The translations under genes were made by a program, and so were the position numbers. This document shows, piece after piece, positions 51,997-55,496 of a DNA stretch of 64,000 nt. This DNA is from Sphingomonas soli NBRC 100801 (GTDB lineage Bacteria > Pseudomonadota > Alphaproteobacteria > Sphingomonadales > Sphingomonadaceae): contig NZ_BCTZ01000004.1 in the NCBI RefSeq assembly GCF_001591025.1, positions 186,001-250,000 on the forward strand, given 5' to 3'. The notes below the pieces were generated by a model. That model saw nothing but the letters and a program-made list of their open reading frames with translations. It made no database searches and had not been told where the DNA came from. The number at the start of each line of letters is the position of its first letter. Position 1 is the first letter of the stretch.

Positions 51997-52464
51997 CTAT
52001 TCCTCGCGGCTGACCTTCTCGTTGCGCTCATGGCGCTCCTGGGCCTCGACGGTCATCGTGGCGATCGGGCGCGCTTCAAGCCGGCCGAGCGAAATCGGCT
52101 CGCCGGTTACTTCGCAATATCCATATTCGCCCTCGTCGATCCGGCGCAGCGCCGCGTCGATCTTGGCGATCAGCTTGCGCTGACGATCGCGGGTCCGCAG
52201 CTCGATCGACCAGTCGGTCTCGCTCGAGGCACGGTCGGTAAGGTCCGCCTCGCGCAGCGAGTCGGCCTGGAGCTGGTTCAGCGTGCCGGCCGCCTCGCGA
52301 TAGATCGCATCCTTCCAGGCCAGCAGCTTCTCTCTGAAATATTCAAGCTGCCGGGGTCCCATAAAGGGCTCGTCGGCGCTCGGGCGATACCCATCCGTGC
52401 CATCATTCGCAGCTGGTGGCATAAATTTACCCGGCTCGTCGTAGCTCTCGAAAACTGTCGCCAT
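51997..52464 (-). CDS. dksA: RNA polymerase-binding factor DksA
   Basis: The start at 52464 is chosen since GGAG lies nine bases before it. The 155-residue product has a long coiled coil (FREKLLAWKDAIYREAAGTL to SSETDWSIELRTRDRQ) and the C-terminal globule with GYCEVTGEPISLGRLEARPIATM. Only one of the four usual zinc cysteines remains, as in other alphaproteobacterial DksA. It works with ppGpp at the secondary channel of RNA polymerase. Confidence 0.95.
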   Translation of the reverse strand: MATVFESYDEPGKFMPPAANDGTDGYRPSADEPFMGPRQLEYFREKLLAWKDAIYREAAGTLNQLQADSLREADLTDRASSETDWSIELRTRDRQRKLIAKIDAALRRIDEGEYGYCEVTGEPISLGRLEARPIATMTVEAQERHERNEKVSREE

Positions 52465-52881
52465 CCCCATACTCTCCACACCAGTCTCCCGGTGGCTGAA
52501 GCCGCCGACGACTGCCTTTGCCCGCGTGCCCTATACTTTCGCGCGAACCAGTTAACAAGCGCGCTATTACGGCAAGATCGCGTCCATCTCCCTTTAGAAT
52601 GGGGGAAATTAGCCATGCATGAACCGCTTCTGGATCGGCCCCATGTTAACCGATTTCGTTCACAGGTCGTTATCAAGCATTAACGTGGCACGTTCCGAAA
52701 CAGTACATTAACCATCAAATGCCGGATGTGGTTTGGATAAATCCTCCAAGAACATGGTAAACACCGCCCATCTCGCTTGCGCTTAATAGTTTGTTTTGCA
52801 CTTTCGGGCATTGATGGCGTGGAAAGCTGCTGACGATCCCGTGGGGAGCGGCCACGCCAGCAACGGAAGAGTGGGACAATA
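52465..52881. other. AT-richer intergenic region between dksA and the serine-rich gene
   Basis: The 417-base gap separates divergent genes. It includes a perfect 6+1+6 palindrome (52682-52694, listed) and an AT-rich segment near 52700-52800. No gene was found. Confidence 0.55.
52682..52694. promoter_or_regulatory. Perfect short palindrome, possible operator
   Basis: AACGTG-G-CACGTT lies 188 bases before the serine-rich gene and 218 bases before dksA. A dimeric regulator could bind it, but none can be named. Confidence 0.3.
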
Positions 52882-54102
52882 ATGTCGGTTCGCATGGCCC
52901 TTGCCAAACTCTGCGCCTGCGCCTGCGGGGGAGCCATTATTGGCGGAAGCGGCGTTTACGTCACCGAACGCGTGTCGAAGCCCCGCGTCGTGAAGCAGCA
53001 GACGGTTGTGAAGAAGCGGGTCGTACGTCGCGTCGTCCGCCGCCCGCAGCAGCGAGTCGTCCGCCGTACTGTCACCACCACCACGAGCCAGGGCGCGGCC
53101 CAGGTGATCATGACGCCCCAGGGCGCGCCGATCCCCCTTCCCCCGCCGCTATACGGCCAAGGCAATCAGTATCCCGTCGTCTCGTCGAGCGCGAGCGGCT
53201 CCAGTAGCTCGTCGGGCGTGATCGGTGGATCCAGCGGCGGCGGCTTTATCGGCGGTTTCTTCGCGGGCGGCTTCTTCGGCAGCTCGGGCAGCGGATCTTC
53301 GGGCAGCAGCGGCAGCTCGGGCACATCCAGCGGCATCAATATCGAGATTTCGTCGACCAGCACTTCTAGCGGTTCGGTCTCAACATCTAGCGGTTCGGTT
53401 TCCACGTCGAGCGGTTCGGTCTCAACATCGTCGGGCGTTTCCACCTCGAGCGGCGTTTCCTCGTCCACGTCGAGCGGCAGCGTCAGCAGCACGTCGTCGA
53501 CGGGCGGAAGCTCGGGCGATGTGTCGTCCTCTACCGGTGGCTCGTCATCCTCCACTTCGAGCGGCGGCAGCAGCGGCGACGTCTCCTCGTCGACATCAAC
53601 GGGCGGTTCGTCGACCTCGACCGGCGGGTCCTCGACCAGCACGTCGACGGGCGGTTCTTCGACCAGCACCTCCACCGGCGGCTCCTCTTCCTCCACCTCG
53701 AGCGGCGTCTCGACATCGAGCTCCACGTCGAGCGGCATTTCGTCCTCGACTTCGTCGTCGAACTCCAGCTCTACCAGCGGATCCACCTCGTCCTCTTCCT
53801 CGACCTCGTCTAGCAATTCGAGCGGGTCCAGCGGCTCTTCCAGCTATGGTTCGAGCAGCAAGGGCTCGTCGAGCCACGGTTCGAGCGGCTGGAGCAACAG
53901 CAGCGGCTGGAGCTCGAACGGGCATGGATCGAGCAGCCGGGGTGGATCGAGCGGTCATCACGGATCCAGCGGCGGCTCCTCGGGCGGCCCCGCACCAGTC
54001 CCGGCGCCCCCGATGATCCTCCTGTTCGGCGGCGCAGCGGCAGCGCTCGTCGCGCGCAAGCGTTTCGCCAAAAAGGCCCCGGCGGAAACCGCGGACTCCT
54101 GA
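52882..54102 (+). CDS. Serine-rich repeat protein with PEP-CTERM-like tail
   Basis: The 406-residue product has four zones. Residues 1-28 form a hydrophobic start with three cysteines. Residues 33-66 are strongly basic (RVVKQQTVVKKRVVRRVVRR and more). Residues about 99-372 are almost only serine, threonine and glycine, with repeats of STSSGSV, GGSSTSTS and similar. Residues 373-395 read PAPVPAPPMILLFGGAAAAL followed by VARKRF, the proline patch, helix and basic end of PEP-CTERM-type sorting tails, though with PAP in place of PEP. Six serine codons are mixed throughout, so the repeat is under selection for the protein and not the DNA. Likely surface-bound and glycosylated; no exosortase gene is nearby. 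Confidence 0.75.
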   Translation: MSVRMALAKLCACACGGAIIGGSGVYVTERVSKPRVVKQQTVVKKRVVRRVVRRPQQRVVRRTVTTTTSQGAAQVIMTPQGAPIPLPPPLYGQGNQYPVVSSSASGSSSSSGVIGGSSGGGFIGGFFAGGFFGSSGSGSSGSSGSSGTSSGINIEISSTSTSSGSVSTSSGSVSTSSGSVSTSSGVSTSSGVSSSTSSGSVSSTSSTGGSSGDVSSSTGGSSSSTSSGGSSGDVSSSTSTGGSSTSTGGSSTSTSTGGSSTSTSTGGSSSSTSSGVSTSSSTSSGISSSTSSSNSSSTSGSTSSSSSTSSSNSSGSSGSSSYGSSSKGSSSHGSSGWSNSSGWSSNGHGSSSRGGSSGHHGSSGGSSGGPAPVPAPPMILLFGGAAAALVARKRFAKKAPAETADS

Positions 54103-54218: not shown

Positions 54219-55496
54219 ATGCACGACATCCGCTTCATCCGCGAAAACCCCGCAGCGTTCGACGCCGGCCTGGCCAAGCGCGGGTTGGAGCCGCGTTCGA
54301 CCGAACTACTCGCGCTCGATGAGAAACGCCGCGCGTTGCAGACCGAGTTGCAGACTACCCTCGCTCGCCGGAATGAAGCATCCAAGGCGATCGGCGCCGC
54401 AAAGGCGCGCCGCGACGATCCTACCGATCTGATGGCGGAAGTCGCAGCGCTCAAGGAACGGATGCCTGCGATCGAGGCCGAGGAAAAGGAATTGGGCGGC
54501 CAGCTCGCCACCGCCCTCGCCGGGATCCCCAATCTGCCGCTCGCAGACGTGCCGCAGGGGGCCGATGAAGAGGACAATTTCCTAGTCCATGCGCGCGGAA
54601 CCGCGCCGAGCTTCGCCTTCGAAGCGAAGGAGCATGACGCGATCGGCCCGGCGCTCGGCCTGGATTTCGAGACCGGGGCGAAGCTCGCCGGCTCGCGCTT
54701 CACCTTCGTGCGCGGCAGCGCCGCCCGGCTCCACCGCGCGCTGGGCCAGTTCATGCTCGATACGCTCACCGGCAAGCATGGCTATGAGGAAGCCGTGGTG
54801 CCGCTAATGGTGCGCGACGAGATCATGTTCGGCACGGGCCAGCTTCCGAAGTTCGCCGAGGACAGCTTCAAGACCACCGATGGCCGCTGGCTGATCCCCA
54901 CTTCCGAAGTCAGCCTGACCAACAGCGTTCATGGCAATATCCTCGCCGAGAGCGAATTGCCGCTGCGTTTCACCGCGCTCAGCCCCTGCTTCCGGTCCGA
55001 AGCGGGCTCGGCCGGGCGCGACACGCGCGGCTATATCCGCCAGCATCAGTTCGAAAAGGTCGAGATGGTCTCGATCACCACGCCCGAGGCATCCGAAGCC
55101 GAGCATGAGCGGATGACCGCCTGCGCCGAGGATATCCTGACCCGGCTGGGCCTGCATTTCCGCCGCATGAAATTGTGCACGGGCGACATGGGCTTCTCCG
55201 CCGCGCGCACCTATGATCTCGAAGTCTGGCTGCCCGGCCAGGCGCGCTACCGCGAGATCAGCTCCTGCTCGACTTGCACCGATTTCCAGGCGCGCCGTAT
55301 GAACGCGCGCTACCGGCCCGAAGGCGAGAAGGGCACGAAGTTCGTCCACACGCTCAACGGCTCCGGCCTTGCGGTTGGTCGCACGCTGGTCGCGGTGATC
55401 GAAAACTATCAGCTAGAGGACGGATCGGTCGCGGTGCCGGAAGTGCTCCAGCCATATCTGGGCGGTCTTAGCCGTTTTGAGTCAGTCAGCCGCTGA
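54219..55496 (+). CDS. serS: Serine-tRNA ligase
   Basis: The 425-residue class II synthetase has the N-terminal long coiled coil ([20 protein letters not shown]) and the core motifs [21 protein letters not shown] (motif 2) and [18 protein letters not shown] (motif 3). It charges tRNA-Ser and tRNA-Sec. The NlpD-like gene starts 31 bases downstream. Confidence 0.97.

Follow-up and report, generated by a model that had tools for sequence, protein, structure and literature searches.

The window analysed here is a stretch of 64,000 nucleotides from the draft genome of Sphingomonas soli NBRC 100801 (GCF_001591025.1, NZ_BCTZ01000004.1, positions 186,001-250,000 of the forward strand). Within it lies a gene for a serine-rich protein, which is flanked by dksA and serS and is preceded by a Shine-Dalgarno-like GGAAGAG at 52865-52871. 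The features of the locus are as follows.

51997-52479, minus strand: dksA, the divergent neighbour, conserved in synteny
52777-52799, plus strand: TTGCRCTTAATNNTTTGTTYTGC, a conserved element of 23 bp that precedes the start codon by about 105 bp, from the alignment of upstream regions
52882-54102, plus strand: gene of the serine-rich protein (P0001), 406 residues, ATG start, a member of an unnamed PEP-CTERM-type family of Sphingomonadaceae
52882-52965, plus strand: head, residues 1-28, MSVRMALAKLCACACGGAIIGGSGVYVT, from alignment and hydropathy
52969-53067, plus strand: basic collar, residues 30-62, from translation and charge count
53173-53988, plus strand: low-complexity region, residues 98-369, 84% Ser/Gly/Thr
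about 53224-53289, plus strand: conserved GG-F-F-GG block in the low-complexity region
53335-53355, plus strand: conserved INIEISS in the low-complexity region
53989-54063, plus strand: PEP-CTERM-type tail, residues 370-394, PAPVPAPPMILLFGGAAAALVARKR, from TIGR02595 and the tail alignment
directly after this tail, at the protein end: FAKKAPAETADS, the 12 residues beyond the matched part
54219-55496, plus strand: serS, the downstream neighbour, conserved in synteny

The encoded protein is serine-rich, as a preliminary description of this DNA had stated: the 272 residues from 98 to 369 include 140 Ser, 60 Gly and 29 Thr, and the middle of the protein contains short degenerate repeats. The same description had correctly named dksA, PilZ and DUF465 genes as neighbours and had noted a basic stretch, which we place at about residues 30-62, with a net charge of +11 over the 30 residues past position 28. 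It had also taken the varied codons as a sign that selection acts on the protein, and this view held up. Serine codons are drawn from both the TCN and the AGY blocks (TCG 53, AGC 46, TCC 26 and TCT 10) in proportions similar to those of neighbouring genes. Measured against the closest relative, the head has a dN/dS of about 0.04, the tail one of about 0.11 and the middle one of about 0.22. AlphaFold2 returned no structure for the window protein (mean pLDDT 43.7). The whole tail, GGPAPVPAPPMILLFGGAAAALVARKRFAKKAPAETADS, has the form PAPVPAPP-helix-RKR, and the intact C-terminal end of the protein reads RKRFAKKAPAETADS.

In a scan with each species represented by one genome, 27 loci, mostly in Sphingomonas, were found to encode the same protein. 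All 27 begin with MSVRMA, and in 26 the frame stays open to a tail of the same type; because so many loci in other genomes encode the protein with an invariant start, the open reading frame is not a product of chance. In one locus (L004) the gene is broken by frameshifts and the adjoining serS is broken too, which indicates an assembly error. The genes for DksA and PilZ lie divergently, and serS lies downstream, in nearly all loci with flanks present. The gene is single-copy and syntenic, and its head model matches 123 of the 200 Sphingomonadaceae genomes examined. A sample of 240 genomes spanning the class gave three matches, all in Sphingomonadaceae and none outside, and the plasmids searched held no relative of the head. 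In Pfam and NCBIfam we found no named family that covers the protein apart from its generic tail, and a literature search returned nothing on exosortase in Sphingomonas or Novosphingobium, nor on serine-rich PEP-CTERM proteins.

The head, the tail, INIEISS and the Pro-rich and GG-F-F-GG segments hold the positions that are invariant or nearly so. Head and tail are the best-conserved parts; the middle is hypervariable and can be aligned only partly, ranges from about 115 to more than 350 residues across the family and is rich either in Ser/Thr/Gly or in Asn/Gln. In one quick tree of the conserved N-terminal parts, built without support analysis, the type of the middle switches about five times, for example between L016 and its neighbour L023. 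The variation in length and the switching of type suggest that selection acts on bulk properties of the middle and not on a fold. Asn/Gln-rich modules replace the Ser/Thr/Gly region in L009, L016, L018, L021, L024 and L065, and motifs such as DNSSKNNN and NNNEQSQxQGQ are common to several Asn/Gln-rich members. L101 and other divergent members carry SGNVST-type repeats with many N-x-S/T sequons, 16 of them in the middle of L101; the window protein has three.

All members have a hydrophobic head, which is likely to be an export signal or a signal anchor. A plausible AEA signal-peptidase site is present in L101, and none is clear in the window protein. Sec substrates do not usually carry a strongly basic stretch directly behind the hydrophobic head, and the position of the collar is awkward for Sec export of the window protein; the net charge of the collar is at least +5 in 51 of 56 family members. 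The N-terminus had been described as hydrophobic and cysteine-rich. This is true of the window protein, but the family as a whole does not require the cysteines, which are missing from the members with VPEP tails. A lipobox reading of these cysteines was rejected, since L066, L079 and L099-L101 have lost them.

Upstream of the gene, TTGCRCTTAATNNTTTGTTYTGC recurs without mismatch in 12 loci of relatives as well as in that of the window, at a nearly constant distance from the start codon. It matches once in the window, with zero matches expected by chance; a second match was found neither in the window, even at three mismatches, nor in the xrtA region. The element is probably a promoter or regulator site of the serine-rich gene or of the divergent dksA. 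A shorter sequence, TTAACCAT, at 52708-52715, is partly conserved upstream in relatives and occurs three times in the window, where chance would give 0.24; we take it to be a CtrA-type half-site of alphaproteobacteria and treat it only as a lead. A sigma-54 site (TGGCAC-N5-TTGCW-like) was sought upstream and no conserved one was found. Such a site precedes most proteobacterial PEP-CTERM genes and is not a strict requirement. Folding of the 5' UTR was not significant (z -1.73).

The preliminary description had likened the tail to PEP-CTERM sorting signals, and the alignments bear this out. The isolated tail scores 17.9-18 bits with TIGR02595 (cut-off 16) and is above the cut-off also in a six-frame search; the whole window protein scores only 9.6 bits, and the window tail falls below the cut-off of the Pfam PEP-CTERM model. 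Taken by itself, the TIGR02595 score is weak evidence. Judged by sequence, it is the canonical VPEP tails of divergent members that settle the tail type, as in L101 (VPEPSMLLLFGGGAAIVLRRRRK), L099 (VPEPGMLLLFGAGAGAVFMRRRRRK) and L079 (VPEPPMVALFAMGALAVFSRRRK). In a six-frame search TIGR02595 gives 28.9-32.4 bits to the tails of three genomes (G014, G166 and G067), and at E up to 0.1 the model matches the tails of 23 of 24 relatives. VPEP is found in most members without head cysteines and PAP-type motifs in most members with them, and the proline motif P-x-P-V-P-A-P-P-M is invariant in 24 tails. The arrangement that defines PEP-CTERM, a proline motif followed by a hydrophobic helix and a basic cluster at the C-terminus, is present at residues 370-394. 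The tail sits at the extreme C-terminus with 12 residues trailing the match, slightly over the typical number; 87% of PEP-CTERM proteins have fewer than ten residues beyond the tail (PMC1569441). These results add a PAPP-type tail, which the Pfam model misses, to the known tail kinds.

The preliminary description had proposed searching the genome for an exosortase and for the same tail elsewhere, and had named the absence of both as grounds for giving up the sorting reading. Both searches were run. Just one exosortase is encoded in the genome, an XrtA (322.7 bits, cut-off 208) that is fused to EpsI, and the motifs EACSG, NGIR (NxxR) and HIVYG (HxxxG) are readable in its translation; exosortases are characterized by a Cys, NxxR and HxxxG (PMC1569441). 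Around xrtA lie genes for an XrtA-type EPS export protein, a TIGR03087 glycosyltransferase and an XrtA-system amidotransferase, as well as a tyrosine autokinase-like protein that scores below its model cut-off. xrtA and the serine-rich gene are unlinked, on separate contigs of the draft. The same tail is common to the relatives' loci. In the window's genome, three TIGR02595 matches are above the cut-off, and only that of the serine-rich protein is the C-terminal tail of a plausible gene; the two others are not tails, one (L081) lying within an antisense frame and one (L083) within a kinase. The idea that no other protein of this genome carries a tag was nevertheless rejected. L084 (538-1578; G000:C3, around 293533) is a real choice-of-anchor A protein (TIGR04215, 177.5 bits) with a PEP-CTERM-like end, VPEGTVGLFALGAAGLVAMRWRRRRK, whose TIGR02595 score is below the cut-off. 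The genome therefore has at least two tagged proteins, and L084 is probably a second XrtA client.

We compared the distribution of the head with that of XrtA in the 200 Sphingomonadaceae genomes, 167 of which matched any exosortase and 122 the tail model; XrtA was above the cut-off in 130, and one fragment was also counted as XrtA. Head and XrtA occurred together in 119 genomes, the head alone in 4, XrtA alone in 12 and neither in 65 (Fisher p 6e-35, uncorrected for relatedness, a value that overstates the association because related genomes are not independent). The head was present in none of the 36 genomes whose sole exosortase type is non-XrtA. In six genera (g22, g37, g45, g52, g55 and g81), near-complete genomes include an XrtA-less member without the head and a congener with both. 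XrtA-less G193 has between dksA and serS a 13-codon remnant of the gene, MSVRMAFAKLCAC, after which the sequence is unrelated; G069, of the same genus, has both the head gene and XrtA. G193 is one of the four head-only genomes, along with two fragmented drafts (G071 and G118) and G173. This last genome is the one clean exception: the gene is intact, the assembly is 99% complete in 3 contigs, and a search of it for an exosortase found none.

Seven of the XrtA-only genomes (G005, G053, G057, G086, G100, G151 and G162) have XrtA as their sole exosortase and 15-39 TIGR02595 matches. The others are two genomes with a second exosortase (G007 and G041), two drafts (G144 and G153) and one genome with 3 matches (G038). 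A search of the XrtA-only genomes with a broader head model turned up no diverged head. Counted per genome at E up to 1, with chance matches included and a count of 40 to be read as at least 40, TIGR02595 matches in sole-XrtA genomes numbered 1-11 with the head (median 3, n=97) and 0-39 without it (median 18.5, n=10); the median was at least 34.5 in genomes with only a non-XrtA exosortase and 1 in those without any. Two assemblies, G107 and G017 (99% and 96% complete), had 24 and 10 PEP-CTERM matches, and no exosortase was found in either; they may hold an orphan tag set, or the exosortase may have been missed. As a control, we inspected the lists for choice-of-anchor A, which occurs in 41 of the 200 genomes, patchily, in genomes with XrtA as well as in genomes lacking it, and is absent from both congeners of the window genome. 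With this distribution and no tie to XrtA, it was rejected as a driver of the XrtA correlation.

Taking together the observed family, its tail type and synteny, the XrtA gene with its catalytic motifs, and the co-occurrence and co-loss, we regard the serine-rich protein as a regular client of exosortase XrtA in Sphingomonadaceae, with a probability of roughly 0.7, and very probably as the only detectable client of XrtA in some genomes. Against this reading we counted the marginal tail scores, the 12 trailing residues, the basic collar, G173, the twelve XrtA-only genomes and the lack of a sigma-54 site. The correlation could instead be one of ancestry, if the gene and xrtA were both ancient in Sphingomonadaceae and were jointly lost clade by clade without any functional tie. 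The genomes are indeed related and the head is restricted to them, but the two genes are unlinked and yet disappeared jointly in several separate genera, XrtA-less G193 preserves a fossil of the gene, the head is missing from all 36 genomes with only non-XrtA exosortases, and choice-of-anchor A, which is also tagged, has no such tie to XrtA. We therefore consider co-inheritance without function improbable. We are similarly doubtful that the tail acts simply as a C-terminal membrane anchor, keeping the protein in the inner membrane uncut by any exosortase. Such an anchor would fit the marginal tail score and the intact gene in G173; a mere anchor, however, would not need the proline motif that is invariant in 24 tails, and the canonical VPEP tails of divergent members and the strong XrtA tie also argue against it.

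It is very unlikely that the protein is a low-complexity protein of the cytoplasm or nucleoid, or that its frame is a spurious one in GC-rich sequence. The collar, being basic, could bind nucleic acid, GC-rich DNA often has long open frames and AlphaFold predicts no fold, but start, head and tail are conserved in one frame throughout the family at low dN/dS, both ends of the protein are hydrophobic, and the tie to XrtA would be left over. Least credible is sorting by a rhombosortase (GlyGly-CTERM) or a myxosortase (MYXO-CTERM), given that the genome has XrtA. A few tails match the MYXO-CTERM model weakly, yet none of the aligned tails has a Cys at or past the proline motif, and an invariant Cys is reported to belong to the MYXO-CTERM signature (PMC11980579); the GlyGly-CTERM model matches none of the 24 tails.

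For a client of XrtA, known PEP-CTERM biology would suggest the following topology, cleavage and release. The hydrophobic head would take the protein across the inner membrane, and the PAPVPAPP-helix-RKR tail would retain it there with the proline motif facing the periplasm. XrtA would then cleave at or near this motif and hand the protein on, a course that has been proposed for PEP-CTERM proteins in general (PMC1569441). The freed chain, long and flexible, would be a polymer of Ser/Thr/Gly (or Asn/Gln) that carries a basic collar, and it would probably join the exopolysaccharide, whose export genes surround xrtA, and tether this polymer to the cell. Our best guess by analogy is that the protein acts as an EPS-associated linker or adhesin, because experiments elsewhere tie PEP-CTERM proteins and exosortases to the retention of EPS on the cell: work in Aquincola concerns EPS retention and flocculation (PMC9850573), and work in Nostoc concerns polysaccharide adhesion, motility and biofilm (PMC12188702). 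This role, binding of acidic EPS by the collar, which might occur, and glycosylation are conjecture. As for the system as a whole, we give even odds to the picture that most Sphingomonadaceae have a minimal XrtA system with the serine-rich protein as its one constant client, that a minority of XrtA genomes have many clients without it, and that between its fixed export head and fixed sorting tail the body is a replaceable polymer of low complexity, either Ser/Thr/Gly or Asn/Gln.

In composition, the very high Ser/Gly/Thr content and the short irregular repeats recall silk sericin-like proteins and serine-rich adhesins, an analogy that implies no homology. The closest likeness is to XrtA-sorted PEP-CTERM proteins (TIGR02595/TIGR03109; PMC1569441), which share a hydrophobic N-terminus, a Ser/Thr-rich body of low similarity, a C-terminal proline motif with helix and basic end, and an XrtA-EpsI in an EPS locus. 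Unlike the usual PEP-CTERM proteins, the members of this family mostly have PAPVPAPP in place of PEP and a strongly basic collar, occur as one syntenic copy per genome and not as expanding paralogues, live in genomes with few other tagged proteins and have no sigma-54 site that we could find upstream. PepA (NF033554), reported to be a PEP-CTERM protein that holds polymer bound and promotes flocs, resembles the family weakly and in the tails only; nothing beyond the tail matches, the PepA model does not match the whole window protein, and, as a further difference, pepA is reported to be RpoN-dependent (PMC9850573). Choice-of-anchor A (TIGR04215), with its VPEGTVGLFALGAAGLVAMRWRRRRK end, may share sorting by XrtA, but it is a named domain family with a patchy distribution. 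Exosortase systems usually have many clients with little in common beyond the tag, and for this reason it is hard to tell what the exosortase does for the cell. The serine-rich family is a real, unnamed PEP-CTERM family that tracks XrtA, and the arrangement of one constant client is unusual. Where one conserved gene follows XrtA almost one to one, deletions of the enzyme and of the client should give the same phenotype, which makes the function of an exosortase directly testable.
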